From Pseudofrankia sp. DC12 (lineage in GTDB: Bacteria > Actinomycetota > Actinomycetes > Frankiales > Frankiaceae), in the NCBI RefSeq assembly GCF_000966285.1, contig NZ_KQ031391.1, positions 5,766,430 through 5,830,429 on the forward strand: a stretch of 64,000 bases of DNA, written 5' to 3'. Shown in pieces: positions 2,236 through 30,625 of this stretch. Positions within the stretch are counted from its first letter, which is position 1. Each line of letters begins with the position of its first letter. Both the position numbers and the translations under genes were made by a program. The notes below the pieces were generated by a model. It was not told where the DNA came from, did no database searches, and was given only the letters and a program-made list of their open reading frames with translations.

Positions 2236-3792
2236 TCATCTGCCGGCCAGGTCGTCGATCTCGACGTCGTCGCTCCAGCCGCGGCTGGCCTCGAGGTAGT
2301 CGCTGGTCAGGTCGTCGCCGTCCTGGTCGGCGGCGCCCGGCAGGTCGGCCCGTTCGGGCCAGACCCGCGCGGCCGGGCGGCGGGGCGAAGGCGCGCCGGC
2401 CGCGGTCAGCCGCGGCTCCGTCGTGGCCAGCCAGGACGGCCGTGGCGGGGGAGCGGTCCAGCCGGTCGTCGACACCTCGGTGGGCCGGTTGACCGGGGCT
2501 CGCCCGAGGACCGCGCTGAAGACCGCGCGGGTGTGCTCCGCCGGCTCGGTCGCCATCCGGGCCCACTCGGCGGCGCGGCGGCGCATCCGGGCGAGGTGGG
2601 CCCGGTCGGCGAGCAGGCCGGCGAGCACCGCGGCGAGGGCCTCCGGCGACTCGTCGGCCGGCGTCGCGCCGGTCACGCCGTCGAGATAGGCGTCCCGGGC
2701 GCCCCCGGAGACGGGGCCGACCACGGGACAGCCGGCGAGCTGGGCCTCGGTCAGCACGATGCCGTAGCCCTCGCCGCTGCGGCCCGGGTGGGTCCTGGTG
2801 CACAGCACGAACAGGTCGGCGCTCGCGTACAGGGCGGCGAGTGCCGCGTCGTCCGGCGACTCGACCAGCTCGGCGTCCGGCACCGCGCCAACCGCCCGGC
2901 GCAGCCCGTCCGGGGCCGGCCCGCGGCCGGCGACCAGGAGGCGCACCGGGCCGACGGCGCGCCGCACTGACGGCAGCGCGGCGATCAGCTCGGGCAGGCC
3001 CTTACCGGCCCAGTTGGCGTCGGCCAGGCTGAAGACGGTCAGCAGCGTCGGCGGCTGTGGCTGCGCCACGGTTGCGTGCGCTGTGGCGCCCTGCGGGGCG
3101 GTCGTCGGCTGGGTCTGCGTCTGGCGCGTCTCGTTGGCCCGGGCGGCGCGGGCGCCCGCGGCCAGCAGCGTCGCGCGCCAGGCGGCGGCGAGGCCGGGCC
3201 GCAGCACGGGGGCCACGCCCAGCTCGGCCAGCGCCCCGGCGTTGTACGAGCTGATCGTCAACGGGTACAGCGCCGGGCGGCGGTTGAGCAGCGCCCGGCC
3301 GAGCCGGCGGGTCCGCCAGAGGTCGGTGCCGTAGAACAGCACCGGCCCGCGCTCGGCGCGGCCCGCGGCGAGCGCCGCCGCGGCCACCGGGATGAGGTCC
3401 GGATGGCCGGTGAGGACCGCGTCCAGCGGCGCCAGCCGGCGGGCGGCGCGCAGCGTGGCGGCGCCGAACCGCAGCCGGGACCCGGTGCCCCGCGGGCGTG
3501 TCGGCCCGTACAGGTCCAGCCGGTGCACCTCGGCGCCGCCGGCGCGCAGCCGCTCCTCGACAGTGCCGAGGTAGCGTTCGACGCCGCCGCCGAGACCTCC
3601 CGACGGGGCCAGCAGCAGCACACGCGGAGCCCCGGTCTCGGCCCCGATATCGAGACGATGTGTGGAGAGCACGGACGGTGACTCTAAGTGTCTGTTCGTA
3701 AGCAGGGTGGAGCCCGGCCCCGGCGCGCCGGCATCCCCCGGCCGAACCGGGCCGACCGGCCGCATCCGGTCAGTCGCCCCCACCACAGTCAC
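2236..3792 (-). CDS. GT4-family (GT-B fold) glycosyltransferase
   Basis: Retaining glycosyltransferase expected to act on a lipid-linked glycan at the cytoplasmic face. The Rossmann-like N-terminal half starts near residue 56 with a hydrophobic strand followed by a glycine-rich loop (GGLGGGVERY). The C-terminal Glycos_transf_1 half carries LLVAGRGP and then SGEGYGIVLTEAQLAGCPVV, the EX7E-type donor-binding motif of GT4 enzymes. The last 90 residues are polar and low-complexity. The first 40-55 residues look unlike the family, so an internal start such as the GTG at 3672 is possible; the longest frame is given. Donor and acceptor cannot be told from the sequence. It is the outermost gene of the glycan locus. 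Confidence 0.82.
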   Translation of the reverse strand: MTVVGATDRMRPVGPVRPGDAGAPGPGSTLLTNRHLESPSVLSTHRLDIGAETGAPRVLLLAPSGGLGGGVERYLGTVEERLRAGGAEVHRLDLYGPTRPRGTGSRLRFGAATLRAARRLAPLDAVLTGHPDLIPVAAAALAAGRAERGPVLFYGTDLWRTRRLGRALLNRRPALYPLTISSYNAGALAELGVAPVLRPGLAAAWRATLLAAGARAARANETRQTQTQPTTAPQGATAHATVAQPQPPTLLTVFSLADANWAGKGLPELIAALPSVRRAVGPVRLLVAGRGPAPDGLRRAVGAVPDAELVESPDDAALAALYASADLFVLCTRTHPGRSGEGYGIVLTEAQLAGCPVVGPVSGGARDAYLDGVTGATPADESPEALAAVLAGLLADRAHLARMRRRAAEWARMATEPAEHTRAVFSAVLGRAPVNRPTEVSTTGWTAPPPRPSWLATTEPRLTAAGAPSPRRPAARVWPERADLPGAADQDGDDLTSDYLEASRGWSDDVEIDDLAGR

Positions 3793-4009
3793 CGCCCGAG
3801 TCGCCCCCGCCTCCCGAGCTGGGCGAGGAGAAACCGAGGTGTCACGGGGCGACGGGGCGGCGGGGCGGCGGCGAGCGCCGGCCCGCTCGCGTGCGGGCCC
3901 GCCAGCCCGACGCCGAGAATCAACGTCACGGGCTGATCGTGACAGGCCGGTACCCGGCGCGACTACTGATCTTTTCGGCCGCCGTGGTCGCCTGGCCGGC
4001 AGCGGCTGC

Positions 4010-5755
4010 TCAGGGCGCCGTCGCGTATTGGGCTTCGAGGTCGCGCTTGAGGAGCTTCCCGGTCGCGTTGTACGGCAGTTCGGTGGCGAAGCGGACGTGG
4101 GCGGGGACCTTGAAGGACGCGAGGGCGGCGGCGACCCAGCCCTGGAGGTCCTCGGCCGTGACAGCGGCGCCGTCGCGCGGCACGACGACGGCCATCACCT
4201 CCTGGCCGAGCTCCCGGTGCGGGACGCCGATGACGGCCGCGTCGGCGAGGTCGGGATGCGCGGCCAGCCTGTTCTCGATCTCGATCGGGTAGATGTTCTC
4301 GCCACCGCGGATGATCAGATCGCGCAGCCGGCTCTCCAGGTAGAGCAGGCCGTCCCGGATCTGGCCGTAGTCGCCGGTTCGGTACCAGCCGTCGGCGTCC
4401 AGGACGGCGGCGGTCGCGTGCTCGTCAGCCCAGTAGCCCAGGAAGCCGCTCGGCCCGCGTACGCAGATCTCGCCGACCTCGCCGTCGGCCGGCTCGACGC
4501 CATCCGGGCCGACCACCTTGAGCTCGGCGGTCGGGGACGCGACGCCGACCGAGCCGGGCGCGCCCCGCAGCCGGCGGCCACCGGTGGTCGCGCCGATGCC
4601 GGTGGTCTCAGTCATGCCGTACCCGCCGCCGATCCCGCGACCGGGCAGGTTCCGGTCGATGATCCGGAGCACCTCCGGGGCGAGCGCGGCGCCGCCGCCG
4701 CCGAGCCCGCGCAACCGGGACAGGTCGTAGTCCGCCAGCCGCGGATGCTCGACGAGGCGCAGGAGCTGGGTCGGCACGCCCGACCAGTTCGTGACGCCGT
4801 AGCGGACGGTCAGGTCGAGGTGGACCGTCGGGTCCCACTTCCCGGGCGGCGCGAAGACCAGGGTCATGCCGGTGAACGGCGCGTTGGTCAGCAGCGGGCC
4901 GATGCCCGAGATGTGGAAGAAGGGCCCGGAGAGGATCGTCACCGGCGGCGTGGCCGGCGCGGGCGCGGCCGGGGCGGAACTGGCCGCCAGCTGGTCGATC
5001 AGCGCGCTCGCCGCGCCGCGCAACGCGGCGTCGGGGCTGAAGTTGACCAGCGCGCGGTGGGGGAGCAGCGCGCCCTTCGGCCGCCCGGTGGTGCCGCTGG
5101 TGAACAGGATCGTGACCGGGTCGTCCTCGGCCAGCTCGGGGCACAGCGCGAGCAGTGCGGCCGCCGCGGTCTGGGGGGTGTCGGCGGCCGGCTCGGCCAG
5201 GGCCAGTGCGGCGAACAGGTCGGCGAAGCGGACGACCGGCTGGCCGGAGGCCTCATGGAGCCCGTCGAGCCGGGCCAGCCGCCGGTCGTCCCCGAACACG
5301 GCGACGGGCTCGGTCAGCCGCAGCCCGTGGGCGAGCTCAGGACCGGTCCACCAGCCGTTGAGCCCGACGGTGATCGCCCCGATCGAGAGCGCGGCCCACA
5401 GCGTCACCGCGTACTCGGCGCTGTTCGCGGCGACGAAGCCGACCCGGTCGCCCTTCTTCACCCCGTACTCGGCGCGCAGCACTGCGGCGACCCGGACGGC
5501 CAACGCCGTGACGTCGGCGAACGTGAGAGTGGCCGCGTCCGCGCCGTCCTGCCCGGTGAAGATGAGGTAAGGCCGGTCCTGGAAGCGGGCGCAGGCGCTG
5601 GCGAGGACCGCCGGCAGGTGGGGCGCCCGGCGCGCGAAGACCGTCATCTCGACGCCGCGGACCTGCTCGCGGGTCAGCTCGAACGGTGCCCCGGGGCCGA
5701 GCAGGCGCTCCCGGACGGGCGCCGGGAGCAGGTCACCGTCGGGCCACCGCAGCAT
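4010..5755 (-). CDS. AMP-forming acyl-CoA synthetase / ligase
   Basis: ANL-superfamily enzyme that activates a carboxylic acid through an acyl-adenylate and transfers it to CoA. The 581-residue protein has the P-loop-like ILFTSGTTGRPKG motif, YGMTETTG, the hinge region YRTGDYGQ, the C-terminal RGGENIYPIEIE motif and the catalytic lysine in NATGKLLKRDL. The ATG at 5755 is chosen because AAGGAG lies about 8 nt before it, and the longer upstream frame is not conserved-looking. It is divergent from the FkbM gene at 5958. The substrate is unknown: a fatty or aromatic acid would fit. Nothing in the sequence ties it to glycan synthesis beyond its location. Confidence 0.88.
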   Translation of the reverse strand: MLRWPDGDLLPAPVRERLLGPGAPFELTREQVRGVEMTVFARRAPHLPAVLASACARFQDRPYLIFTGQDGADAATLTFADVTALAVRVAAVLRAEYGVKKGDRVGFVAANSAEYAVTLWAALSIGAITVGLNGWWTGPELAHGLRLTEPVAVFGDDRRLARLDGLHEASGQPVVRFADLFAALALAEPAADTPQTAAAALLALCPELAEDDPVTILFTSGTTGRPKGALLPHRALVNFSPDAALRGAASALIDQLAASSAPAAPAPATPPVTILSGPFFHISGIGPLLTNAPFTGMTLVFAPPGKWDPTVHLDLTVRYGVTNWSGVPTQLLRLVEHPRLADYDLSRLRGLGGGGAALAPEVLRIIDRNLPGRGIGGGYGMTETTGIGATTGGRRLRGAPGSVGVASPTAELKVVGPDGVEPADGEVGEICVRGPSGFLGYWADEHATAAVLDADGWYRTGDYGQIRDGLLYLESRLRDLIIRGGENIYPIEIENRLAAHPDLADAAVIGVPHRELGQEVMAVVVPRDGAAVTAEDLQGWVAAALASFKVPAHVRFATELPYNATGKLLKRDLEAQYATAP

Positions 5756-5957: not shown

Positions 5958-6884
5958 ATGGCGCAGGGTGGGGTTGTGCTCGCCGGGCGGCGGGGACCGA
6001 TGCGGTGGCGGGTTGCCGGCCGGCTGGACGCGCGGCTGCCCGAGCTGTGGGGCCGCGACCAGGTCGTCGGGTGGGTGCGCGGGCCCGTGGACCGTTACGG
6101 CGGCCCGCTGGCCGGCCGCCTCGCCAACGGGATGTCGTTCGACCTGGCCAGCTGCCGGGACGGCTCGGCGCGGGCCCTCTCGGCGCTGCGGTACCGGGAG
6201 CCCGCGCTGGCCCCCGTGTTCGAGGCCGTGCTGCGGCCTGGCGACACCTGCTACGACGTCGGCGCGAACATCGGCGTCTACACCCTGTGGGCCGCCGGCC
6301 TGGTCGGCCCGTCCGGGCAGGTACACGCGTTCGAGCCGGTGCCGCCGACCATGGCGGTGCTGCGCGAGATGGTCCTGCGCAACGGCCTGGGCCAGGTGGT
6401 TCCGGTCGCCAGCGCGATCGGGGCGACGGTGGGCCAGACCGGCCTGCGCAGCTACCAGGGCGCCTCCGGCCGCGCGCACGCCGTCGCCGACCCGAGCCAC
6501 GCCGACCATCTCGCCCGCCTCGACACCCTCGACGCCTATGTGGCCCGGCACCGGCCGCCCGACCTCGTCAAGATCGACGTCGAGGGTGCGGAGATCGACG
6601 TGCTGCGGGGGGCGGTCGGACTGCTCGCCGCCCATGCCCCGGCGCTGCTGCTGGAGATGCTGCCCAGCCACCTGGTCCGCCACGGCGGCGGCCAGGGCCT
6701 GGAGGAGTTCGTCGGCCGGCTGCTCGACGCTGGCTACATGCTGTTCAACCTCACCCCGCGAGGCCTCGCCCCGAGCGGCGCGTACACGGCCAACGTCCTC
6801 GCGCTCGCCCCCCGCTCGGACCGTTTCACCGAGGTGGTCGACGCGCTGGCGCGCGTCCCGTTCGCGCGTAACCAGAGCACCTGA
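5958..6884 (+). CDS. FkbM-family SAM-dependent methyltransferase (copy 1)
   Basis: FkbM-type O-methyltransferase, cytoplasmic, 308 residues from the chosen ATG. It has the SAM-binding motif CYDVGANIGVYTLWAAG, the acidic strand-2 motif VHAFEPV and the family hallmark LVKIDVEGAEIDVLRG. FkbM domains methylate sugar or polyketide hydroxyls; in a glycan locus a sugar O-methylation is the natural guess. The longer frame (from 5835) begins with residues unlike the family and overlaps the promoter of the divergent acyl-CoA synthetase gene; the ATG at 5958 has only a weak AAAAGG upstream. It converges on a second FkbM gene, so the two are not co-transcribed. Confidence 0.85.
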   Translation: MAQGGVVLAGRRGPMRWRVAGRLDARLPELWGRDQVVGWVRGPVDRYGGPLAGRLANGMSFDLASCRDGSARALSALRYREPALAPVFEAVLRPGDTCYDVGANIGVYTLWAAGLVGPSGQVHAFEPVPPTMAVLREMVLRNGLGQVVPVASAIGATVGQTGLRSYQGASGRAHAVADPSHADHLARLDTLDAYVARHRPPDLVKIDVEGAEIDVLRGAVGLLAAHAPALLLEMLPSHLVRHGGGQGLEEFVGRLLDAGYMLFNLTPRGLAPSGAYTANVLALAPRSDRFTEVVDALARVPFARNQST

Positions 6885-6938: not shown

Positions 6939-8042
6939 TCAGACCTCGCCCGACCGGGCCAGCCGCTGGCCGGTCCGGGCCGCGGCGGGCAGCCGCAGCT
7001 GGCCTACCCCGGCGCGCGGACCGACCGGGAGCGCGAGGGTGGTCGAGGGTGCCGCCGCAAGTGGGACGCGCTGGGCCGGCGCGAGCGCTCCGTCGAGCAC
7101 CCGGTAGCCGTGCCCGGCGAGCAGGGCCCGCACCGGGCGGGCGTTCGCCCGGGCCACCTCGCAGATGACGGTCGGCCTGGCCTGAGCGAGAAGCCGGTGG
7201 CCGCCCTCCAGCACCAGCCGCTCCGCGCCGCCGACGTCGATCCTCAGGAGGTCCGGTGCCGGTGCGTGTGCCAGCAGGTCGTCGAGGGTGAGGGTCGGGA
7301 TCGGCATCACCGCCCGCACCGTCGCGCGGCGCCCGAACCCGGCCCGGCGGCCGATCGCCCGGTTCCGGGTGGACCCGCAGAGACGGCTGACGCCGGTCGC
7401 GGCGCCGATCGCCGCCGCGAGCACCTCCACCGGCGCCCGGATGGCCGGCAGCGCCGCCGAGCGGCGCAGCAGGCCGACCAGCCAGACGTCCGGCTCGACC
7501 GCCAGCACGTGGCCGGCGGGGCCGGCCGCCGTCGCCGCGGCGAAGCTGAACAGGCCCGCGTTGGCCCCGACGTCCCACACCACGGCACCGGGCCAGACCG
7601 TCTCGCGGATGAGGCCGGTGGGCACCGGCTCGACCCGGGTCAGCGTGCGGCGCAGGTACTCCAGGCCGGCATCGCTGGACACGTAGATCCGGGTTCGCTG
7701 ATAGGGCGCCGGCAGCCGCCGCTGCACGACGAGCCGTTGGGTGGCCCGCTCGGCGACCGACCGGATGGCGCTGGGCGCGGGCGTGCCGAGGCCGGCCACC
7801 CGCCCGTCGGGACTGACGGAAAGCCCGCCGAGCCCACCGACGCCCACGCCGAGCTCCAGCGCTACCGGCGCGCGCAGCTCCGCCACCAGCGGCTCGACGA
7901 GCCGGGTGACGACCCGGAGCCGGTCTCGGAACGAGCCGCGCCGGGCCCGGCTGTCGACCCGCCCGGGCAGGACCCGCGCGAAGCCCGCCGCCGCGGCCGC
8001 GCGGGCGTCGTCGGGCGGGCGGGCTGGGTCGGTCATCGGCAT
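6939..8042 (-). CDS. FkbM-family methyltransferase (copy 2, atypical hallmark motif)
   Basis: 367-residue FkbM-type methyltransferase. The SAM motif VWDVGANAGLFSFAAA is intact and followed by VLAVEPDVW. The hallmark that usually reads IDVEGAE is here IDVGGAE (in LLRIDVGGAERLVLEGG): the first acidic residue is replaced by Gly, so activity or acceptor may differ from copy 1. The N-terminal about 130 residues have no recognised domain. It is the last gene of a probable three-gene unit (GT2-FkbM fusion, heparinase-like, this gene) with gaps of about 50 bp, so it is probably co-transcribed with them. Role in O-methylating the same glycan is inferred. Confidence 0.8.
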   Translation of the reverse strand: MPMTDPARPPDDARAAAAAGFARVLPGRVDSRARRGSFRDRLRVVTRLVEPLVAELRAPVALELGVGVGGLGGLSVSPDGRVAGLGTPAPSAIRSVAERATQRLVVQRRLPAPYQRTRIYVSSDAGLEYLRRTLTRVEPVPTGLIRETVWPGAVVWDVGANAGLFSFAAATAAGPAGHVLAVEPDVWLVGLLRRSAALPAIRAPVEVLAAAIGAATGVSRLCGSTRNRAIGRRAGFGRRATVRAVMPIPTLTLDDLLAHAPAPDLLRIDVGGAERLVLEGGHRLLAQARPTVICEVARANARPVRALLAGHGYRVLDGALAPAQRVPLAAAPSTTLALPVGPRAGVGQLRLPAAARTGQRLARSGEV

Positions 8043-8088: not shown

Positions 8089-10125
8089 TCAGCCTGGCTG
8101 GCTGGCGCCAGGCACGACCGTCAGGACGGTGCGCACCCGCAGTGGCAGCCGGGCCCGCACCCGGAAGCGGGCCGTCGCCGCCGGGACCGTCCGCCGCCAG
8201 CCGGTGGCCCGCTCCGCGGTGACGATCTGCCAGGCGGCGGCCGCCGGGCCGGCCCAGGCGTCGGCACCCTCGGCGTCGGCCGGTTCGCACAGCGCACGCA
8301 GCGTGACGATCGTCCCGTCGGCCCGGACGAAACGAGCCACCGAGCCGGCCCCGGACCGGTCGAGGCGAGGCTCGGCCGTGAGCCCGAGGCCGGGGGCGAA
8401 CTGGAACAGCACGTCGATGACGTGGGCCCCGGCGCGCCGCGGGCTGGGACGCGTCGGCTCGACGGTGTCGATGATCTCGACCCGGTCCGGCCACAGCCGC
8501 AGGTCGCGCCGATGCGCCGGGCGGCCCCGCAGGTGGTGGAAGCCGGCGTGCTCGCCAGCCAGCAGCACGCCGGCGCCGTCGAAGCCCGCTTCGAGCAGCC
8601 GCGCCCGGGCCGCCCGGCCGGCCCGCAGCGGGCCGCGGGCCTCGACCGAGTCGGCGCCGTCCACGACGATGGTCGAGTGGGCCGCCGTGCCGCGCTCCCG
8701 GCCACGGACCGGGCCTGGCACGTCGGTCGACGTCCCGGTATCCACCAGGAGCGGGCGCCCCGCGTGCCAGAGCAGGAACGCGAGCGCGCTGGCGTGGGCC
8801 GGCGGGTGGGCCGTGCTCGGCGGCCCGAAGTCGGCGAGCACCCACAGCACGCCCGCGGTCGCGACCGCGAGCCCGCTGTCGGCGAGCACTCGCAGCGTCG
8901 GCTCGGCCGCGTCAGGCGCCCTCGCCGCACTTGTCGGCGTCACTCCCGGTGGCGTCGCCAGCGGGCTCGCTGCCGCGAGAACGAGCGCGGCCGACGCGGG
9001 TGCCGATCGCGCCAGGGACCGCGTCCGGCCGGCGGCGGGTCCGGTGGTGGCCGGGACGGGACCGCGCACCGGGGTGTCGACCGGGACGGGGCCGTCCGAA
9101 CCGCGCGCGGCGGGAATGGCCTCGGCCGGGTCGGCCAGCAGGAGAGCCACCATGGGCTCGGCGACGGGGAACCCGTCGTCGAGCGGGGAGACGGTCCCGT
9201 CGGGGGAGCGGACCGCGGCGAGCCAGCCGCGCATCCGGGTGACCGCGTCGGTTAGGTCGGGCGGAACCGGCCGGCCCGCCGCGGCGAGTAGGCCGGTCAC
9301 GTCGATCAGGTCCGCGAGCACCTGGCAGTGGGCGGCGGGTGCCCGCTCGGCGTGGCCGCCGTCGGGCCCCACCTGACGGTGCGCCGCCCGGCGCAGCGCC
9401 TGCGCCCAGCGGTCCGCGTCCGGGCCGTCCCCGGCGGCGACCGCGAGGCCGACCAGCGCCTTGAGGTTCCTGACCAGGTGCCGCCCGGCGACGTCCACCT
9501 CAAGGTGGACCCGCAGGAACGCGCGGTGGCGGGCGAGGTCGAGGGCAAGCGGCCCGTCGGCCGTCGTCCCGGCGGCCAGCGGCCGGTGCAGGGCACACAG
9601 CGACCACGCCCGCACCGAGGCGACGGACGCGGACCAGGCCGCCGCGCGCGCCGCCGGCACGGTCACCGCCCTCGGCGCGGGCACGCAGGCCGCCCGCCAG
9701 GACAGGTACAGCCCGCCGAACAGGTCCCGGTACCCGTCGGTCGTCAGCGCCCAGGCCCACTCCCAGCCATGCAGGTGGTCGTGCCAGCGCGCCGCGGCGT
9801 CCGGCTGGGCCCAGTCCGTGTCCGGGGCGCCTTCCGGGCCGGCGGGGTGCAGCGTCCTGGTGTGGCCGAGCAGGGTGAGCTGGCCCGCGGCGAGCCGGGC
9901 GGGGTCGGCCCACAGCGGCCGGCAGCGGCCGGCGAGTGGGACGAAGCCCGCCGGCCAGCCGTCCGCTCCCAGCGCCCGCTCGGCGCCGGTGAGCACCGTG
10001 AACAGGCCGGGGACGTGGGCCAGCGCCGCGCGCTGCCCGCGCAGCCGGGCCCGCGCGACTAGCTGCCCGGGACGCGAGCCGCGCGCGATCCACTCGTGGC
10101 GGCCCTGCCACGGCGGCGGGATCAC
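8089..10125 (-). CDS. Heparinase II/III family protein (polysaccharide lyase-like)
   Basis: 678-residue protein with the two-part layout of heparinase II/III-like proteins. An alpha-helical toroid-like N-terminal region (about 1-330) contains several Trp-rich helices, for example around HDHLHGWEWAWAL. The C-terminal beta-sandwich domain (about 430-660) holds GRPLLVDTGTSTD, GTAAHSTIVVDGADSVE and the region after it. Such proteins lyse uronic-acid polysaccharides, and relatives inside EPS loci may trim or modify the nascent glycan. No signal peptide is visible at the given N-terminus, so a cytoplasmic location is as likely as export by another route. It lies between an upstream GT2-FkbM fusion and a downstream FkbM gene on the same strand. 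About 60 residues between the two domains are low-complexity. Confidence 0.8.
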   Translation of the reverse strand: MIPPPWQGRHEWIARGSRPGQLVARARLRGQRAALAHVPGLFTVLTGAERALGADGWPAGFVPLAGRCRPLWADPARLAAGQLTLLGHTRTLHPAGPEGAPDTDWAQPDAAARWHDHLHGWEWAWALTTDGYRDLFGGLYLSWRAACVPAPRAVTVPAARAAAWSASVASVRAWSLCALHRPLAAGTTADGPLALDLARHRAFLRVHLEVDVAGRHLVRNLKALVGLAVAAGDGPDADRWAQALRRAAHRQVGPDGGHAERAPAAHCQVLADLIDVTGLLAAAGRPVPPDLTDAVTRMRGWLAAVRSPDGTVSPLDDGFPVAEPMVALLLADPAEAIPAARGSDGPVPVDTPVRGPVPATTGPAAGRTRSLARSAPASAALVLAAASPLATPPGVTPTSAARAPDAAEPTLRVLADSGLAVATAGVLWVLADFGPPSTAHPPAHASALAFLLWHAGRPLLVDTGTSTDVPGPVRGRERGTAAHSTIVVDGADSVEARGPLRAGRAARARLLEAGFDGAGVLLAGEHAGFHHLRGRPAHRRDLRLWPDRVEIIDTVEPTRPSPRRAGAHVIDVLFQFAPGLGLTAEPRLDRSGAGSVARFVRADGTIVTLRALCEPADAEGADAWAGPAAAAWQIVTAERATGWRRTVPAATARFRVRARLPLRVRTVLTVVPGASQPG

Positions 10126-14473: not shown

Positions 14474-14529
14474 GAGGTCGCGGCGAGCGAACGCGTCGTC
14501 GCCGCCCGGATGGGGACGGGCCGGCGAGC

Positions 14530-18105: not shown

Positions 18106-18271
18106 TTTTGGTCAACCTCACATTCTTCCTTGTGTGTTGTGATCGTCGCTGTGCCCATCGACCTCGACGCTCGCCATGAGTCCGGAGTGACGAAACGCGG
18201 TCGGGCACCCTTCGGTCGTAGCCACTATTACGCTACTGTGAGCGCATGAGCGGTCGCCCTGCATCGTCGGC

Positions 18272-19738: not shown

Positions 19739-19867
19739 TCGACTTCTGCCGTTTGGGCAGGGCGCGGAGAGTCTCAGATGCGCGGGGGTCTGTTTGCCGT
19801 TCTCTCGCCACGCGACGCGGACGGGCCAAGCCACCTTGGGAGCCTTTCCGAGACCGGCTTGTACTGA

Positions 19868-22731: not shown

Positions 22732-22998
22732 TAGGGCCCTGGAGTGATCTGGCCGGCCCGCCCGTGCGTAGACCTGGCTGTCGAGTGGTGCGGCTGCGGC
22801 GGTCCGGCCGGTTCGGTCCGGGGCCGCGTGACGCCCCGGTTCCGCAGTTCGTGGGCACACAGTGAAGATCGCTGACGTGAAGTCGCAGGTAGCGGGCTTG
22901 TCGACCACGGAAATTCGGGCTCGCGGTGCCGAAAGTGTGGTAACACGACTGGTCTGATCGTGGTTGCTCCACCTGGGTCTGTGTGGTTTGGTGTGGGC

Positions 22999-23246
22999 AT
23001 GTACCTGCGGTTCACGCAGCGGCGGAACGCCGACGGGTCGGTCGTGCGCTACGTCGCGCTGGCCCACAACCACCGCGTCGATGGGGCGGTCAAGCCCCAG
23101 GTGCTGATGAACCTGGGCCGGGTCGAGGCGGTCGACGTCGGCGGGCTGCGCCGGTGACGACCGCCCTCAGCCCGACCCAGAAGGCCATCTACCAGGACGT
23201 CTCCATCGCACCACCCGCCCGGGTCACCGCCTTCGACCCCAGCTGA
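22999..23246 (+). pseudogene. Internally deleted IS1634-family transposase remnant
   Basis: The first part (22999-23157) reads MYLRFTQRRNADGSVVRYVA and continues to NLGRVEAVDVGGLRR, the conserved N-terminus of IS1634-type transposases. It then stops. In another frame the next 90 bp read LSPTQKAIYQDVSIAPPARV and then TAFDPS with a stop, which resembles the C-terminal end of the same family. The catalytic core (over 400 residues) is missing. It lies just outside the IS5-type element. Confidence 0.6.
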
Positions 23247-23343
23247 TCACCCCGCAGCAGCCCTGCCAGGGCCGGCCAGGGCGTGGACACACGCCCTCTC
23301 CCGGCCCCAGGGCTCCGGCGTGATCGCGTTCTGACCGGTGTTG

Positions 23344-24578
23344 TCAGGGGAAGCCGTGGAGATCGAGTGCGGCGGTCGGGGTGGTGTGATCGCGGCGGCC
23401 GTGTGGGATGAAGCGGTAGCCGGTCCGCCGCAGCCTGTTGATCACTGCGGAGCGGATCGTGGCGAGGTTCGCTGGGCTGTTGGCGGTGCGCAGGGTGGAG
23501 GCGTCTTCGCCGAAGCTGACGTCCCGGACGTAGTGGACCTTGTTCTCGATGGTCCAGTGCCGGCGGGCGTGGGCGGCGAGGGCCGCGGGGCTGGCGGTCC
23601 GGGCGGGTTGGTCTGTGATCGCGTAGACGGTTTCGCGGCTGGGTTTCTTTCCCTTCGGGCGGCGCCAGCGGGTGATCCGGACCGCCTGGGTGGCGTGCGG
23701 GAAGGCCAGGAACCCGGCGGTGGCTGCCTTCAGGACGCGGGTCTCGTCGCGGCCGTGTCCGTGGTCGCGACAGGTGTCGGCGACCGGGATGTCGGCCCAG
23801 GGCAGCCCGGCGAGCTGGGCGTACAGGGTCGGCTGGTTGCGCTTCACGACCGCGACGTAGTGGGCGTTCTTCTCGGTGACGAGCCAGTCGAGGTTGGCTC
23901 GCACGGTATGCATCGCGTCGAACGTGACCGTCACCCCGGCCAGGTCGAGTCCGGCCAGCAGCGGCTGGAAGGCGCTGGTCTCGTTGCTTTTCTGATCGAC
24001 CTCGACCTGGCCGACGAGCAGCCCGCCCTCGTGGGTCGCGGCCCCGAGCAGGTGCACCCGGGTGCCGTCGGGCCGTCGGGCACCGCGGCTTGTCTTCCCG
24101 TCCACCGCCACCGCCGGCCCCGGCCCCTCCTTCTTCTCAAGGTTCGCGGGTAGTGGCTCGTCACCGAGCAGCGCGGCGGCCAGCGCGTCCCGGTCCAGGC
24201 GGGCCAGCAGCCGTCGTAGCGTCGTCTCGTCCGGCACGAGATACGCCCGGTGAACGGGTCGAACGGCAACCGCAGCCGGCCCAGCTCCGCCGGGCCCGCC
24301 CGCGCGGCCCACTGCCCCACAGCGCACACGGCGTCATGGCCCGCGGCGGTCAGCGCGCACGGCAGCACCGCCAGCAGACACGGCAGCACCGCCAGCAGAC
24401 ACGGCAGCACCGCCAGCAGACACGGCAGCACCGCCAGCAGACACGGCAGCGGGTAGACCCGCCCCCGCGCCGAGCGCGGGTCCGGCACCTTCGCCAGCCG
24501 CTCCCAGATTTCCTCCCGCAACACGCCACCGGCTCCCACCATGCCGGCCGCGGCGCGGGACAATGCCACCACAGGCAC
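23344..24578 (-). pseudogene. ISAs1-family transposase, frameshifted
   Basis: The N-terminal frame contains the DDE_Tnp_1-associated domain (REEIWERLAKVPDPRSARGR ... GHDAVCAVGQWAARAGPAEL ... LPFDPFTG). The rest of the protein continues in a different frame from near 24250 (YLVPDETTLRRLLARLDRDA) and holds the catalytic regions AVAVDGKTSRGARRPDGT, VTFDAMHTVRANLDWLV and HWTIENKVHYVRDVSFGED. The frame change falls at FDPFTGR/YLVPDE, where the protein would otherwise be continuous, so a single indel has split it. The N-terminal domain also carries four copies of PCLLAVL that are not normal for the family. Probably inactive. Confidence 0.75.
24360..24443 (-). repeat. 21-bp tandem repeat, four copies
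   Basis: Four identical head-to-tail copies of a 21-bp unit beginning CGGCAGCACCGCCAGCAGAC, plus a partial fifth (to about 24450). On the minus strand each copy encodes PCLLAVL in the transposase N-terminal frame, so the array keeps that frame. It probably arose by slippage. It has no spacers and is not a CRISPR. Confidence 0.9.
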
Positions 24579-24691
24579 GCCGCACCCCAGACCACGAAGA
24601 CGTCAGACATCTCCGTGATCTACAAGCGGCGTGCCTCTTCCTTTGCCACCGACACGTGCCCCAGCCGTGTCCCCCACGCACCGAAGCCCTG

Positions 24692-25096
24692 ATCACCAGA
24701 CCGAGGGGATCAACCGGTCAAATCGCGAGCACGCCGGAGCCCTGCTCCCGGCCCTACACGTGTTTCCCCAGGTCAAAGCCGTGATCAGCAGATTCGTGTG
24801 ACCACCAACTGCGGAACTCGGGTGACGGTGCCTGGCCGCCGGTCCCTCGCCACTGCGTACAGAGCTGGCGGAAGGTAGGAGATTGATTCACAGAGGGTAA
24901 TCGCTAGTGGCGTGTGCGACCTCTGTTCTCCTGGTTCGTATACCCGGTGCGGCCAGGAATGGCCGCAGGCTTCCATATGCGATCGGTCGGGCTCCGTCGC
25001 GTTTGGCGCGAATCATTCTTGATCGAATGCGCGACACGGCAATCACCCGGCGGCTACTTAGTGTAGTGATGATCTTACCTGAAGTAGATTCTGGGC
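24692..25096. other. Gap upstream of the sugar-transferase operon
   Basis: About 400 bp without a supported gene. It should hold the promoter of the five-gene operon starting at 25097, but no clear -35/-10 pair can be fixed by eye. The stretch 24960-25095 is less GC-rich than the surroundings, which fits a promoter region. Confidence 0.4.
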
Positions 25097-26065
25097 ATGG
25101 GCACTGCGACGCTAGTGAACTCTCGGCAGCGGTCGATCCCTCGTGCGGCCGCGCTGACAGACCCGTCCGCGCGGCCGCCTGTCAGCGAGGCGTGGTCCGT
25201 TGAACAGGTACATCTCGCCGGCATGAAACGGGCGGCCGATGTCGCCGGGGCCCTCGCGGGCCTGGCCTTGACAGCGCCGGTACTGGCGGCCGCCGCCGTC
25301 GCCATCAAGGTGGACGACGGCGGGCCGATGCTGTTCCGCCATGAGCGGGTCGGTGCTGGCGGTGAGCCGTTCACGATGCTCAAGCTACGGACGATGACCG
25401 TCGGGGCTGAGCGCCTGGGGCTGGGCCTGGTTGCTGCGCACGACGATGCGAGAACGACCCGGGTTGGGCGGGTGCTCCGCCGGACCAGCGTTGACGAGTT
25501 GCCACAGTTGGTCAACGTGCTGGCCGGGCAGATGAGCCTCGTCGGACCACGGCCGACGGTCCGAAGCCAGGTAGAGCAATACTCCCACCGCCAGCGGCGC
25601 CGGCTCGCGGTACGACCGGGCCTCGCCGGCTGGGCCCAGGTCAACGGCCGTAACCGGATCTGCTGGGCGCGCCGCATCGAGCTGGACCTGTGGTACATCG
25701 AGAACTGGAGCCTCTGGCTCGATCTGAGGATCATGGCCCGGGCGCTGGTGGCGGCGCTGGCCGGTGCCGGCACGTACGGCGCCGGCGGCGTGACCCAGGA
25801 CTTCGGGAGCTGCGGAGACGGTGACGGGGATTGCCGCTGCGCGCCGTCGGCGGACCTCTCCGGGCACCGGAGCAGACGAGCCGGCTGGGGTCTCCCGCGG
25901 CGCCGCCCGGAGATCGACCGGGGCGACATCGCGCCGTCGCACTTCGTCCCACGTCAGCGCGAAAGTGAGGACGGGCTGAGTCCCGCCCCGGCGAGCCCCG
26001 CATACGCCGACGCCGCCAGCCGGCAGGAGCGGCCGCGGCTGGTGCTGTCGGGGAGCTCGGAATGA
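25097..26065 (+). CDS. Monotopic phosphoglycosyl transferase (PglC/bacterial sugar transferase family)
   Basis: Initiating enzyme that transfers a sugar 1-phosphate to polyprenyl phosphate (PF02397). It lacks the multi-helix N-terminal extension of WbaP and so is of the small PglC type. Motifs: MKRAADVAGALAGLALTAPV (re-entrant membrane helix), FTMLKLRTM, the catalytic Asp-Glu dyad in RRTSVDELPQLVNVL, GQMSLVGPRP, RPGLAGWAQVNGR and ELDLWYIENWSLWLDLRI. The C-terminal 95 residues are unconserved and polar. The conserved part begins at the internal Met at 25223, so the first 42 residues may not be translated. It overlaps the aminotransferase gene by 4 bp (ATGA), showing translational coupling. Confidence 0.88.
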   Translation: MGTATLVNSRQRSIPRAAALTDPSARPPVSEAWSVEQVHLAGMKRAADVAGALAGLALTAPVLAAAAVAIKVDDGGPMLFRHERVGAGGEPFTMLKLRTMTVGAERLGLGLVAAHDDARTTRVGRVLRRTSVDELPQLVNVLAGQMSLVGPRPTVRSQVEQYSHRQRRRLAVRPGLAGWAQVNGRNRICWARRIELDLWYIENWSLWLDLRIMARALVAALAGAGTYGAGGVTQDFGSCGDGDGDCRCAPSADLSGHRSRRAGWGLPRRRPEIDRGDIAPSHFVPRQRESEDGLSPAPASPAYADAASRQERPRLVLSGSSE

Positions 26066-27333
26066 CCGAGTCCGGGCCCGCGGCGGCCCGTAGTGTTACT
26101 GTGCCGCCGGCCGCCGCTCTCCCCCTCCCGCGCGGCGGCGACGTGCGCGAGGCCGGGAGGCCAGCCGCGGCGGCGCCCTCCTGGCCTGTCTTCGGCCCCG
26201 AGGAGGTCGCCGCCGCGGTCGAGGCGCTCAACAGCGGCGCGGTGAACTATTGGACGGGTACCCACGGACGCCGGTTCGAGCAGGAGTTCGCGGCGGCTGT
26301 CGGATGTCAACATGGTGTGGCCGTGGCCAACGGGACGGTGGCGTTGGAGATCGGGCTGCGGGTCCTCGGTATCGGGCCGGGTGACGAGGTGATAGTGCCA
26401 AGCCGGACCTTCTTCGCGTCCGCGAGTGCCGTCGTCGCGCTCGGTGCGCGCCCGGTCGTGGTCGATGTGGATCCCGACTCTCAGAACCTCACCGCCCGGA
26501 CGGTCGCGGCCGGACTCACCTCTCGTACCAGGGCCATCGTCGCGGTGCACCTCGCCGGGTGGCCCGTCGAGATGCCGAGCCTGCTGGAGCTCGCGCGTCG
26601 GCACAGGCTTGCCGTCATCGAAGACTGCGCGCAGGCCCACGGCGCGCGCCTGCACGGACGCCCCGTCGGTTCCTGGGGCGACGTGGCGGCCTGGTCCTTC
26701 TGCCAGGACAAGATCCTCACCACGGCGGGCGAGGGGGGGATGATCACAACAAACGACGCGGCTCTTCACCGAGAGGCGTGGTCCTACAAGGACCATGGCA
26801 AGAGCTGGAGCAAGACCCGCACGGCTCCCAGCGGTGTTGGGTTCCGCTGGCTGCACGACTCCTTCGGCACGAATGCCCGGATGCACGAACTCGCCGCCGC
26901 GGTAGGCCGCGCCGCTCTGCCGCGGCTGCCGGCCGACCTCGTGGCACGCCGCCGGAACGCGGCGATCCTCGCCGAACGGCTCGCCGGGCTGCCGGCCCTG
27001 CGCGCGACCGCACCGCCGCCATGGGCCGAGCACGCCTACTACCGCTGGTACGCGTTCGTCCGGCCGGAACAACTGCGGGACGGATGGGATCGGGACCGCG
27101 TACTCGCCTCCCTTGTCGCCGCAGGCGTGCCGTGCAGCGTCGGATCCTGCGGCGAGATCTACCGGGAAGCGGCCTTCCCGGCCGCCTGGCGGCCAGCACG
27201 GGAACTGCCGGTCGCCGCGGCGCTGGCCCGCACGTCGCTGGCCTTTCTCGTCCACCCGACCCTCGAACCCGAGGACATGCACCACTGCGCGGACCTCATC
27301 GTCAGCGTCCTGTCTGAAGCGAGCACGTGCTAG
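26062..27333 (+). CDS. DegT/DnrJ/EryC1-family sugar aminotransferase
   Basis: PLP-dependent aminotransferase that converts a nucleotide-linked keto sugar to an amino sugar. Seen: the N-terminal GAVNYWTGTHGRRFEQEFA, VANGTVALEIGLRVLGIGPG, IVPSRTFFASASAVVALGA, IEDCAQAHGA (Asp contacting PLP) and WSFCQDKILTTAGEGGM with the Schiff-base lysine. The 423 aa length is normal once the 40-residue low-complexity N-terminus is allowed for. The 4-bp overlap with the PglC-type gene and the following epimerase and dehydrogenase genes place it in nucleotide-sugar synthesis for the glycan. A PglE/PseC-like role (UDP-4-amino sugar) is inferred; no 4,6-dehydratase of the PglF type was seen in the window. Confidence 0.87.
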   Translation: MTESGPAAARSVTVPPAAALPLPRGGDVREAGRPAAAAPSWPVFGPEEVAAAVEALNSGAVNYWTGTHGRRFEQEFAAAVGCQHGVAVANGTVALEIGLRVLGIGPGDEVIVPSRTFFASASAVVALGARPVVVDVDPDSQNLTARTVAAGLTSRTRAIVAVHLAGWPVEMPSLLELARRHRLAVIEDCAQAHGARLHGRPVGSWGDVAAWSFCQDKILTTAGEGGMITTNDAALHREAWSYKDHGKSWSKTRTAPSGVGFRWLHDSFGTNARMHELAAAVGRAALPRLPADLVARRRNAAILAERLAGLPALRATAPPPWAEHAYYRWYAFVRPEQLRDGWDRDRVLASLVAAGVPCSVGSCGEIYREAAFPAAWRPARELPVAAALARTSLAFLVHPTLEPEDMHHCADLIVSVLSEASTC

Positions 27334-27353
27334 CCAGCCATGAGGAGCCAACT

Positions 27354-28352
27354 ATGAAAGTCGTCGTCACCGGCGGCGCCGGTTTCATCGGTTCGCACGT
27401 GTGCGAGGGACTCGTCCGACGGGGTGTCGCCGAGGTCGTGGCCTTCGACGACCTCAGCACCGGCAGCGCGGCCAACGTGGCCGGCACCGGTGTCGACCTG
27501 GTCGAGGGCAGCCTCTTGGACTGGTCTGCCGTAGCCGCCGTCGTAGCCGGCGCGAGTAGCGTCGTCCACCTCGCCGCGTTGCCCTCGGTGCCCCGCTCGC
27601 TGGCCGACCCACTGGCCTCCCACGAAGTCAATGTGACTGGCACGGTGCACGTACTCGAGGCGGCCCGTGCGTGTGGGGCGCACGTCGTCATGGCTTCGTC
27701 GTCGTCCGTGTACGGCGCGCAGAGCGCGCTGCCCAAGACCGAGGACATGGCGCCGCGGCCGGTCAGTCCCTACGCCGCGAGCAAGCTCGCCGCCGAGAGC
27801 TACACCCTGGCCTACGCCCGCTCGTTCGCCGTGCCCGCGCTCGCCGTCCGGCTGTTCAACGTGTTCGGGCCGCGGCAGCGGGCGGACAGCGCCTACGCGG
27901 CGGTCATCCCCCGGTTCATCCAGGCCGCCATCGCGGGCACGCCGCTGCAGGTCCACGGAGACGGAAGACAGACTCGGGACTTCACCTTCGTCGGATCCGT
28001 GGCCGACCGGCTCTGCGAGGCGGCCATCCGCCGGATCGTCCATGACGGGCCGGTGAACCTCGCCTTCGGGTCGCGCACCAGCCTGCTGGCGATCGTCGGC
28101 CTGCTGGGCGAGATCCTCGGCCGGTCGCCGGACATCGCCCATGTCGCGGCGCGGCCTGGTGACGTGCGTGACTCCCAAGCTGGCACAGAGATCCTGAACC
28201 AGCTGTTCCCGGGAGCGGAACCGCACGACCTGCGAGGCGCGCTGGCCGAGACCGTCGCCTGGCACGTCCACCGGGCGGCCTCCTGCGCGCCGTCCGCCAT
28301 GGTCGGATCCACGGGGGCGTCGCTGGTGCCTGCGCAAGCCCCGGTCGGGTGA
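27354..28352 (+). CDS. NAD-dependent nucleotide-sugar epimerase/dehydratase (extended SDR)
   Basis: 332-residue extended short-chain dehydrogenase. MKVVVTGGAGFIGSHVCEGL gives the GxxGxxG NAD site; HLAALPSVPRS, the catalytic Ser in MASSSSVYG and the YxxxK dyad in SPYAASKLAAE follow. NVFGPRQ and GDGRQTRDFTFV place it near UDP-glucose or UDP-GlcNAc 4-epimerases. The ATG at 27354 is chosen because GAGGAG precedes it by about 8 nt; the longer frame overlaps the previous gene. It is the third gene of the operon. Epimerase is preferred over dehydratase, but the substrate is not fixed by the sequence. Confidence 0.87.
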   Translation: MKVVVTGGAGFIGSHVCEGLVRRGVAEVVAFDDLSTGSAANVAGTGVDLVEGSLLDWSAVAAVVAGASSVVHLAALPSVPRSLADPLASHEVNVTGTVHVLEAARACGAHVVMASSSSVYGAQSALPKTEDMAPRPVSPYAASKLAAESYTLAYARSFAVPALAVRLFNVFGPRQRADSAYAAVIPRFIQAAIAGTPLQVHGDGRQTRDFTFVGSVADRLCEAAIRRIVHDGPVNLAFGSRTSLLAIVGLLGEILGRSPDIAHVAARPGDVRDSQAGTEILNQLFPGAEPHDLRGALAETVAWHVHRAASCAPSAMVGSTGASLVPAQAPVG

Positions 28353-28374
28353 CCAGCGCGGCTCGGACGCTGTC

Positions 28375-28399
28375 ACGTTAAGTATTTGACTGATAACGT
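28375..28399. promoter_or_regulatory. Short inverted repeat before the sugar dehydrogenase gene
   Basis: ACGTTA and TAACGT form a perfect 6-bp inverted repeat separated by 13 bp, ending 7 bp before the ATG. It lies in a locally A/T-rich spacer and also contains TTGACT. It could be an operator or an internal promoter of the operon; nothing else supports this. Confidence 0.25.
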
Positions 28400-28406
28400 T
28401 GAGTGC

Positions 28407-29735
28407 ATGAGTGATCTCGGGAAGCTCGTCGTCGTCGGGCAGGGCTACGTGGGCCTGCCGCTGACCATGCGGTCGGTCGCGGCGGGCTGGCACGTCGTCG
28501 GCGTCGACGTCGACGAGTACCGGGTGAAGCGGCTGGCCGTCGGCGAGTCCTACATCGACGACGTCACCGATGGGGACCTGCGGGCGGCGTTGGCCACCGG
28601 TCGTTATGAGCCGGTTGCCGATTACGGCCCGGCGGCTGGATTCGACGTCGCCGTGGTCACCGTGCCGACCCCGCTGCGTGACGGTGTCCCTGACGTGCTG
28701 CATGTCGGCGAGGCTGGCCGCCGCCTCGCCCCGCTGGTGCGGCCGGGAGTGACGGTGGTGCTCGAGTCCACCACCTACCCCGGCACCACCGAGGAACTGT
28801 TCGGCCCGCTGCTGGAGGCGGGCTCCGGCCTGGTCGCCGGCCGGGACTTCCGGCTTGGCTACTCGCCGGAGCGCATCGACCCTGGCAACCGAACCTGGAA
28901 CCTGGGAAACACCCCGAAGGTCGTCTGCGGGGTCGACGAGGCGTCGCTCGCCGCGGTGCGCGCCTTCTACGACACGATCGTCACCCAGACCGTCCCGGTC
29001 AGCTCCACCCGGACCGGCGAGCTCACCAAGCTGCTGGAGAACACCTTCCGGCACGTCAACATCGCGCTGGTCAACGAGCTGGCCATGGTCGCGGGCCAGC
29101 TCGGCGTCGACGTCTGGGAGGCGATCGACGCCGCCGCCACCAAGCCATACGGGTTCATGCGGTTCACCCCCGGCCCGGGCGTCGGCGGGCACTGCCTGCC
29201 GATCGACCCGTCCTACCTGTCCTGGCGGGTCGAGCGCAGCGTCGGACGCCCGTTCCGGTTCGTGGAGCTCGCCAACGACATCAACGACCACATGCCCGAC
29301 CATGTCGTCGCCCGGGTGGGCCTGATGCTCAACGACCGCGGCCGGCCGGTGCGTGGCAGCCGGATCTTGCTGCTCGGCCTGTCGTACAAGAAGAACAGTG
29401 GCGATGCCAGGGAGTCGCCGGCGGTGCGGGTCGCCACGCTGCTCGCGGGGCTCGGCGCGGACGTCCGGGCCACCGACCCGCACGTCGACCCGGCGCAGGT
29501 CCGCGCCCCGGTCCGGCTCGTCGAGCTGGACGAGGCGGAGCTCGCCGCCGCCGACCTCGTCGTCGTCCTCGTCGACCACGACCTGTTCCCGCGCGGCCTG
29601 GTCACCCGGTTCGCCCGCGTGGTACTCGACACCCGACGCTGGCTGCCGCCGGCCCCGGTCGTCCCGGCCCAGCGCCGCGCCCCGGACGCGGAGAGCCTGA
29701 TCGTCCCGGCGGCCGCGCGGGTGGAGTCGCTCTGA
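28407..29735 (+). CDS. UDP-glucose/UDP-N-acetylhexosamine 6-dehydrogenase family
   Basis: Nucleotide-sugar dehydrogenase (442 aa) that oxidises C6 to give a UDP-uronic acid, using two NAD. The N-terminal NAD domain has VVVGQGYVGLPLTMRSVAAG; VVTVPTPL and VLESTTYPGTTEEL follow; the central helix region reads ELTKLLENTFRHVNIALVNE. The catalytic cysteine is in GPGVGGHCLPIDPSYLSW. The C-terminal domain has LLLGLSYKKNSGDARESPAV. The GHCLPIDP form is that of the WecC/WbpA group (UDP-ManNAc or UDP-GlcNAc dehydrogenases). Start at the ATG 28407; the track-longest TTG start 21 bp upstream has no support. Gap to the epimerase is 54 bp. Confidence 0.88.
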   Translation: MSDLGKLVVVGQGYVGLPLTMRSVAAGWHVVGVDVDEYRVKRLAVGESYIDDVTDGDLRAALATGRYEPVADYGPAAGFDVAVVTVPTPLRDGVPDVLHVGEAGRRLAPLVRPGVTVVLESTTYPGTTEELFGPLLEAGSGLVAGRDFRLGYSPERIDPGNRTWNLGNTPKVVCGVDEASLAAVRAFYDTIVTQTVPVSSTRTGELTKLLENTFRHVNIALVNELAMVAGQLGVDVWEAIDAAATKPYGFMRFTPGPGVGGHCLPIDPSYLSWRVERSVGRPFRFVELANDINDHMPDHVVARVGLMLNDRGRPVRGSRILLLGLSYKKNSGDARESPAVRVATLLAGLGADVRATDPHVDPAQVRAPVRLVELDEAELAAADLVVVLVDHDLFPRGLVTRFARVVLDTRRWLPPAPVVPAQRRAPDAESLIVPAAARVESL

Positions 29736-29794
29736 AACCCGCCGACCGCCGGCCGGATGCCGCCTCGGTCCCCCCGCCCGCTGATGCTTCCGCT

Positions 29795-30625
29795 ATGGCG
29801 GCGTCCCCCGACGCCGCGCGGGCCTCGGCCGTCCCGCGCCCGTCGGCGCCCGGGGCTCCCGGTGGCGTGCCGGCCGCGGAGCCGCCCGTTCAGGCGGCCG
29901 CGCGGCCTTCGCACCCAGGTGTCGCGCCGCCCATCGATCTCGCCCTGTTCGGGGTGGCGATCGCCGCGCGTGGCCGTCCCGGCCGGACCGGCGCGCAGGA
30001 GGCGGCCTGGACCGTGCTGCACCTGGGCGCGGCCGACGACGAGCACGGCCGGGCCAGTGCGGTCGACCTGCTCGCCGGCCTGCGCCACGCTGGCCAGCCG
30101 GCCCGGCTGCGCCTCGTCGGCCCGCTGCCGCAGGCGCAGCGCGGCCGACTGCTGGAGCGGGCCACCGACGAGGGAGTGGTCGGCGCCCTCGACCTTCTCG
30201 GTGCGCGCGCGCCGCACGAGATCGCGCGGCTGCTCGTCGAGGCCGCGCTGCTGGTCGTTCCCGTCCCGGCCGGCCTCGTGGCGCGGCCACGCCGTGACGT
30301 GGCGGGGGCGGGCCACGCGCTTGACGACGGGGCCCTCGTCGCCGTCGCGCTGGCCGGGTGCGCCGCCGGCACGCCCGTGCTCGCTCCGGATCTGCCCGGG
30401 ATGCGCGCCCTGGCCGCCGAGCTGCCCGAGGTCACGCTGATGGCGCCGAAGGCACCGGCCGAGGCCTGGGCGCGGGCCGCCGCCGGCCCACTGCCCGTCC
30501 CGCCGACGCCGGACGAGCGCTGGACCGCGCTGCGGCGCCTGCGCCGCTCGTCCTTCTGCCAGGACCGCCCCGCGCTGGGCGCCGCCGCCGCCGGGGGCCC
30601 GGCCAGCCAGCCACCGCGCGGCTGA
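29795..30625 (+). CDS. Half-size GT-B glycosyltransferase-like protein (C-terminal domain only)
   Basis: 276-residue protein whose central part (about 70-230) resembles only the C-terminal Glycos_transf_1 half of GT4 enzymes: WTVLHLGAADDEHGRASAVD, ARLRLVGPLPQ, GALDLLGARAPHEIARLLVEAALLVVPVP, then ALAGCAAGTPVLAPDLPGMRAL. The N-terminal acceptor half is absent, replaced by 45 low-complexity residues, and the usual glutamates of EX7E are not visible (the region reads ALDDGALVAVALAG). It may be inactive, a partner of another GT, or a degenerate gene. It ends the five-gene operon, 59 bp after the dehydrogenase gene. Confidence 0.5.
   Translation: MAASPDAARASAVPRPSAPGAPGGVPAAEPPVQAAARPSHPGVAPPIDLALFGVAIAARGRPGRTGAQEAAWTVLHLGAADDEHGRASAVDLLAGLRHAGQPARLRLVGPLPQAQRGRLLERATDEGVVGALDLLGARAPHEIARLLVEAALLVVPVPAGLVARPRRDVAGAGHALDDGALVAVALAGCAAGTPVLAPDLPGMRALAAELPEVTLMAPKAPAEAWARAAAGPLPVPPTPDERWTALRRLRRSSFCQDRPALGAAAAGGPASQPPRG

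Follow-up and report, generated by a model that had tools for sequence, protein, structure and literature searches.

The 64,000-bp stretch of Pseudofrankia sp. DC12 analysed here (hereafter the window; bases 5,766,430-5,830,429 of a single-contig genome of 6,884,336 bp, called G000 below) carries a surface-glycan locus beside the aconitase gene acnA. Comparison with relatives establishes that this region is a composite, in which an older acnA-linked glycan locus of the Frankiaceae has received a newer inserted cassette. The older part holds an initiating transferase of the WecA/MraY type and a heparinase II/III-family lyase, both of which have lost otherwise invariant residues, and the cassette carries an initiator of its own, of the PglC type. 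The explanation that we prefer, at a probability of roughly 0.6, is that the cassette was inserted into the older locus and that constraint on the old initiator and lyase has since been relaxed, leaving both probably without activity.

The insertion is visible as an empty site in two same-genus relatives, G001 and G002. In blastn comparisons, positions 12526-13660 and 28413-33722 of the window map 123 bp apart in G001, and nothing in the compared part of G001 matches the 14,752 bp between them (13,661-28,412). In G002 the flanks are 141 bp apart and the unmatched part of the window spans 13,622-28,391 (14,770 bp). The block sits between the WecA-like initiator and a nucleotide-sugar dehydrogenase, and it comprises NeuD, two glycosyltransferases (GT4b and GT4c), a methyltransferase, Wzx- and Wzy-like proteins, two insertion sequence (IS) elements, PglC, DegT and a short-chain dehydrogenase/reductase (SDR). 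The gene order in G001 is GGDEF-EAL protein, GT4a, ligase, FkbM1, FkbM2, GT2, further genes, WecA-like gene, dehydrogenase, GTx and acnA. In G004, G005 and G006 both the insert and the dehydrogenase are missing, and GTx and acnA come next after the WecA-like gene. Third-codon-position G+C (GC3) is 0.64-0.76 in the genes from GT4b to Wzy, compared with 0.89-0.98 in the genes flanking the insert, and gene G+C content is about 59-66% at 14.5-21.2 kb. No direct or inverted repeat of at least 10 nt was found between the junction regions 13548-13860 and 28250-28480. A second stretch that does not align to G001, at 7797-11209, corresponds to the heparinase and the FkbM3 half of a GT2-FkbM3 fusion.

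The two initiators are also separable across genomes. We searched 117 genomes (35 Frankiaceae, the present one included, and 82 others) for the WecA-like clade at E<=1e-60 and for PglC orthologues at E<=1e-70. The WecA-like clade is present in 28 of the 35 Frankiaceae and the PglC orthologue in 6 of the 35, and each in 0 of the 82 others. Both occur in G000, G008, G020 and G023, the WecA-like gene alone in 24 genomes, PglC alone in G014 and G026, and neither in five. Because each initiator occurs without the other, the two are parts of separable modules. A first-pass annotation of this DNA had treated the region as a single system, while allowing that two unrelated initiators could mean two glycans. 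The initiators are indeed unrelated and mark two systems, but the single-locus reading fails, since the PglC part is an insertion and relatives carry part of the block elsewhere. Indeed, the idea that one locus uses two initiators to make a single, heavily methylated glycan draws on physical adjacency only; it is contradicted by synteny, given the empty site in G001 and G002 and the independent occurrence of each initiator, and we regard it as very improbable.

Evidence for altered constraint comes from residue loss, which we measured as the number of alignment columns that are identical in all other orthologues yet different in one given sequence. Heparinase relatives occur in 25 of the 35 Frankiaceae, with two weak matches outside the family. 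In an alignment of 22 of these 25 carriers (G011, G018 and G027 were left out), 29 of 127 invariant columns are violated in the window copy, compared with 0-6 in each of the other 21 copies except that of G020 (19 of 117). For the WecA-like protein (26 of the 28 carriers, leaving out G027 and G030) the window copy violates 7 of 70, compared with 0 of 63 for six same-genus copies. The remaining genes were compared using the copies in the compared stretches only. FkbM2 (9 sequences) shows 13 of 88 violated columns in the window, 11 of 86 in G011, 6 of 81 in G017 and 0-2 in the rest. The FkbM3 domain, compared alone, violates 40 of 148, versus at most 12 of 120 in five other copies, every one of which is from another genus, such that the difference partly reflects distance. 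As controls, the window copies of FkbM1 (13 sequences), GT4a (16), the dehydrogenase (17) and acnA (10) violate 0/79, 2/80, 3/182 and 3/735 columns, respectively. The GTx copy violates 8 of 142 (6 sequences), and that of G006 also 8. The inserted PglC (6/106), DegT (7/209) and NeuD (4/116) are inside the range of their orthologues.

Some of the lost residues align with catalytic ones. A heparinase profile built from 11 family members, the window copy included, matches structures 5JMD, 4FNV, 4MMI and 4MMH. Counted on the alignment, the conserved motifs GGN and PAY and the leading His of HAHAD correspond to chain positions 216, 270 and 400 of 4MMH, and a constant offset of 24 turns these into Asn240, Tyr294 and His424, the catalytic residues of heparinase III as given in PMC12088678. 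The window protein carries N216R and Y266A at the positions aligned with Asn240 and Tyr294, and keeps the His. The WecA-like protein of the window has five changes at positions where, apart from gaps, the other 25 aligned copies do not vary: E89Q and D94N lie in the acidic motif, N153K in NxFNFMDG, and H269Q and R270G in a motif that precedes HxYQ. We take the acidic pair and the NxxNxxDG motif to have the functional meaning that they have in PNPT enzymes. It is thus likely that the old lyase is inactive, and the same may hold, with less assurance, for the old initiator. These losses also bear on the proposal that two independent glycans are both made by merely neighboring WecA-type and PglC-type modules, each functional. 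That all frames are open, that PglC, DegT and NeuD look normal and that the modules are independent elsewhere would all suit this proposal, but the WecA-like protein has lost invariant residues in several motifs and the heparinase has changed two of its three aligned catalytic residues, and we therefore judge it unlikely.

The heparinase protein is also changing faster than its closest relative. Against the sister copy in G007, with F. alni as outgroup, 100 residues changed in the window only and 38 in the sister only (p=1.3e-7), compared with 35:31 at fourfold-degenerate sites, and three more relative-rate comparisons agree (p 1.2e-9 to 4.4e-4). FkbM1, acnA and GT4a show no window excess against G001, one FkbM1 comparison being reversed (2:10). 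The window dehydrogenase has changed more slowly than that of G001 (18:52 and 22:53), and gives 28:15 against G005 (p 0.066). In trees, the heparinase pairs with that of G007, from the same genus, at a support of 1.0, with terminal branches of 0.93 and 0.40, respectively (1.59 for G020), and FkbM2 groups with G001 and G002 at 0.90. These groupings argue against a recombination event in which an unsampled lineage with unusual enzymes supplied the whole block from FkbM2 through the heparinase and the GT2-FkbM3 fusion to the WecA-like gene. Such an event would account for the GT2 half of the fusion being 70% identical to the G001 GT2 while its FkbM half is 52-55% identical to Frankia/Parafrankia-like copies, and for a similarity to G001 that ranges along the locus from 93% to unaligned. 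Nevertheless, we find it quite improbable.

Several observations weigh against relaxed constraint following the insertion. The rate excess of the WecA-like protein is not uniform (28-42 versus 17-33 in six comparisons, p 0.007-0.72), and its terminal branch in the window, 0.36, is just the fourth longest. For FkbM2, two of four comparisons are significant (p 0.0005 and 0.027 against G007; 0.3 and 0.21 against G001), and in six comparisons of the GT2-FkbM3 fusion, several of them between different GT2 domains, the window has no excess. G011, the single member of its genus here, violates 7 of 70 WecA-like columns, together with its 11 of 86 in FkbM2, without having a PglC orthologue. Conversely, G001, G002, G004 and G006 have intact WecA motifs and no heparinase match; lyase loss therefore need not follow insertion or initiator decay. 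Among the four genomes with both modules, G008 and G023 have normal heparinases. Moreover, the species is sampled by one genome only. Finally, the four old open reading frames have no stop or frameshift and GC3 values of 0.89-0.93, which fits retained function.

The open frames can be set against an expectation. Between 1.3 and 1.8% of substitutions would create stops, and if all window-only changes in the heparinase, the WecA-like protein and FkbM2 were neutral, about 8 nonsense changes would be expected, or about 2 if neutrality is limited to the excess over the sister; none is seen in the approximately 2,100 codons of the four frames. Long neutral decay is therefore disfavored, and both recent relaxation and altered function fit. 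It is conceivable that the WecA-like protein, the heparinase and FkbM2 were instead adapted under selection to a new glycan or a binding role, which would explain the complete absence of stops. However, two of the lost residues align with catalytic ones and several unrelated genes have been hit together, and we consider such a change of specificity fairly unlikely, though it is the rival that we take most seriously.

The insert is not uniformly foreign, which also counts against the preferred explanation: NeuD, PglC, DegT and the SDR have GC3 values of 0.84-0.88, near those of native genes. Because these values differ from those of the genes from GT4b to Wzy, and because the inserted DegT shares 83% identity with its G008 counterpart, the insert is in turn a mixture of an amino-sugar unit that circulates in the family and a low-G+C stretch from further away. 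Among 196 genomes, matches to the Wzx-like protein were its own and five from other families, and none came from the same family.

If relaxed constraint is correct, the older module (GT4a, FkbM1, FkbM2, heparinase, GT2-FkbM3, WecA-type initiator, dehydrogenase and GTx) would have produced an undecaprenyl-linked, hexuronate-containing and partly O-methylated glycan, which the heparinase II/III lyase would have trimmed at uronates. The cassette, about 14.75 kb long, would direct the synthesis of a separate lipid-linked unit. In this scheme, an unlinked 4,6-dehydratase together with DegT and NeuD would yield a di-N-acetylated amino sugar, PglC would load it onto undecaprenyl phosphate, GT4b and GT4c would extend it, the Wzx-like protein would flip the unit and the Wzy-like protein would polymerise it. 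FkbM1, GT4a, the dehydrogenase and GTx would have been retained, perhaps serving the new glycan. As a hypothesis, the insertion may have caused the decay of the lyase and initiator. A more specific version, which we hold only tentatively, is that we are seeing a takeover midway, wherein the PglC cassette displaces the WecA-type initiator, the initiator and lyase are becoming pseudoenzymes, and the dehydrogenase, FkbM1 and the glycosyltransferases are being recruited. G020, another genome with both modules, has a strongly diverged heparinase as well, the one such case among the 21 copies aligned besides that of the window, but G008 and G023 do not.

The gene assignments are listed in Table 1. 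Profile searches confirm what the first-pass annotation had named as three FkbM domains, one other methyltransferase, the WecA/MraY-type and PglC-type initiators, NeuD, DegT and the dehydrogenase. That annotation had missed the heparinase II/III protein, the acyl-CoA-ligase-type protein, the two IS elements, the low-G+C stretch and the two-module structure. The heparinase scores 113.7 bits with PF07940 (gathering cut-off 24), the WecA-like protein 92.9 bits with Glycos_transf_4 (PF00953; cut-off 27) and the PglC-type protein 212.9 bits with Bac_transf (cut-off 27). The last also has the DELPQL motif, in which we take the D-E pair to play the role that it has in PglC. The naming of the Wzx- and Wzy-like proteins draws support only from the 11 and 9 membrane segments seen in a hydropathy scan, and no relevant Pfam or NCBIfam match was found for either; the single match, to B12D (E 0.29), is meaningless. 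Single-sequence AlphaFold models were too poor for a fold search, with mean predicted local distance difference test (pLDDT) values of 43.9 (Wzx-like) and 47.6 (Wzy-like). DegT and the SDR are under the cut-off of every NCBIfam family among the matches listed.

Table 1. Features of the composite glycan locus and its borders (window coordinates).
Feature	Position	Strand	Basis or remark
GGDEF-EAL protein, left edge	222..2210	+	Pfam; neighbour 86% identical in G001; conserved neighbour, membership not shown
GT4a, GT4 glycosyltransferase, older module	2236..3621	-	Pfam; synteny
AMP-binding acyl-CoA-ligase-type protein	4010..5755	-	profile; position kept in several same-genus genomes
FkbM1, FkbM methyltransferase	6000..6884	+	PF05050/TIGR01444 above cut-off
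FkbM2, FkbM methyltransferase, altered motif	6939..8042	-	PF05050/TIGR01444 above cut-off
Heparinase II/III-family protein, probable pseudo-lyase	8089..10125	-	PF07940
GT2-FkbM3 fusion, FkbM domain C-terminal	10178..12268	-	FkbM profile above cut-off
WecA/MraY-type initiator, Frankiaceae clade	12415..13548	-	PF00953
Inserted block	13661..28412		blastn vs G001, G002
NeuD/PglD-type acetyltransferase	13814..14473	+	TIGR03570, 183.6 bits, cut-off 160.8
GT4b glycosyltransferase	14530..15864	-	Pfam
GT4c glycosyltransferase	16017..17303	-	profile, barely above one cut-off
S-adenosylmethionine (SAM) methyltransferase, non-FkbM	17404..18105	-	profile
Wzx-like membrane protein	18272..19738	+	11 hydropathy segments
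Wzy-like membrane protein	19868..21232	+	9 hydropathy segments
IS element, DUF4096 + DDE transposase frames	21754..22734	-	20-nt terminal inverted repeats; sole full copy in genome
Second IS element, DDE transposase across more than one frame	23301..24751	-	39-nt terminal inverted repeats
PglC-type (Bac_transf) initiating phosphoglycosyl transferase	25097..26065	+	PF02397
DegT-family aminotransferase	26062..27333	+	Pfam
SDR related to TviC, GalE, LegB	27354..28352	+	profile
Nucleotide-sugar 6-dehydrogenase, older module	28407..29735	+	TIGR03026
GTx, weak GT-B-like protein, older module	29795..30625	+	below Pfam cut-offs; conserved place between dehydrogenase and acnA
acnA aconitase, right chromosomal anchor	30928..33720	+	97% identical in G001

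The likely chemistry can be narrowed. An N-acylated amino sugar had been proposed from NeuD, PglC and DegT, and this is supported by their adjacency as a compact unit in G014, G020 and G026. Three of the four members of a bacillosamine-type set (aminotransferase, acetyltransferase and PglC) are linked here, and the dehydratase is unlinked, the only strong 4,6-dehydratase (PF02719, PglF/WbpM type) being at 4.82 Mb, about 0.95 Mb away and beside a NeuD paralogue and a Wzz/P-loop protein. An unlinked set at L092:6967-16153 comprises a PF02719 dehydratase, an SDR 52% identical to that of the window, a NeuD paralogue, a tyrosine phosphatase, a Wzz/P-loop protein and a DUF4012 protein. The dehydrogenase falls in TIGR03026, with TviB, WecC and UDP-glucose dehydrogenase as kin, and scores below every equivalog cut-off. 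Since the genome has no match to UDP-GlcNAc 2-epimerase (PF02350), UDP-glucose or UDP-GlcNAc is the likelier substrate. The uronic acid suggested earlier is plausible as a hexuronate, and ManNAcA made by the usual WecB/WecC route is unlikely given the missing epimerase match. A part for the acyl-CoA-ligase-type protein in the glycan is doubtful.

The case for heavy O-methylation, which the first-pass annotation had called uncommon in actinobacteria, is weakened. The conserved D-x-E-G is altered in both FkbM2 (RIDVGGAE, versus K-I-D-[VI]-E-G-A-E in eight others) and FkbM3 (RIDLDGSE), but FkbM1, with no violated column, has an intact KIDVEGAE. Rarity of FkbM genes is unsupported, as such a domain occurs in 32 of the 35 Frankiaceae and in 11 of the 23 genomes sampled from elsewhere in the class. 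FkbM1 could possibly be the source of 2-O-methyl-D-mannose, which the title of a 1983 paper by Mort et al. reportedly names as a key sugar in Frankia taxonomy. The cell-wall sugar table in PMC9680954, for its part, does not list 2-O-methylmannose. There are four FkbM matches in the genome, three of them in this locus; the unlinked fourth (G000:C1:6025266-6025796) is the top-scoring of the four, and similar-scoring ones occur in several Frankiaceae. This fourth gene may be a rival candidate for 2-O-methylmannose, such that the link to FkbM1 is a lead only.

Other features of the region and genome deserve mention. The ligase-FkbM1 stretch (3852-6912) is 93% identical to G001 at the nucleotide level, versus 88% across dehydrogenase to acnA, which hints at recent recombination. 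G001 has second GT4a and FkbM1 copies (L093, L048; 59% and 69% identical to those of the window) beside the first, and after them come a Polysacc_synt-type protein and a two-component system. The split-frame transposase region of the second IS element includes a perfect 21-bp tandem repeat (4.4 copies, 24358-24450). Genome-wide, there are four Bac_transf-type and three Glycos_transf_4-type matches, and initiators are therefore not limited to this locus. One further initiator, a full-length Bac_transf plus CoA_binding_3 protein, lies about 4 kb past the window end (window coordinates 68004-69377; L006:4004-5377). We rejected the WecA-like gene as the housekeeping WecA: it forms a separate clade, and the other match in the genome (32% identity) is at 2.02 Mb.

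Among the results listed for the open-licence literature searched, we found no published account of the acnA-linked Frankiaceae locus. Genetically, it makes a good candidate for encoding a surface glycan of the Frankiaceae, and the present strain offers a way to test whether a glycan locus can change its product through gain of a cassette and decay of the old initiator. The cassette resembles the PglC/PglD/PglE start of bacillosamine-type pathways in its Bac_transf initiator, NeuD/PglD-type acetyltransferase and DegT, but PglF is absent from the block, the only strong one being the distant copy noted above. The old initiator resembles the polytopic WecA/WbpL/MraY transferases in its PF00953 domain and about eight hydropathy segments, the likeness to WbpL being our assumption; the Frankiaceae clade has E-D where the two paralogues in this genome have D-D, and the window copy changes further motif residues. 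Heparinase III of family PL12 and related lyases share the PF07940 domain with the old lyase, and the family profile matches their structures, but the window copy lacks the residues aligned to Asn240 and Tyr294. Compared with Wzx/Wzy-dependent capsule and exopolysaccharide loci, no Wzz was found among the block proteins scanned (the Wzz/P-loop protein is near 4.82 Mb) and the Wzx and Wzy assignments lack family-level proof, but the initiator, glycosyltransferases, two large membrane proteins, low-G+C stretch with IS elements and chromosomal anchor are all alike. Mosaic glycan loci are of a known kind. This is an ordinary mosaic glycan locus that was rightly spotted but misread as one system, and what sets it apart is an unusual sign of degeneration in its lyase and possibly in its initiator.

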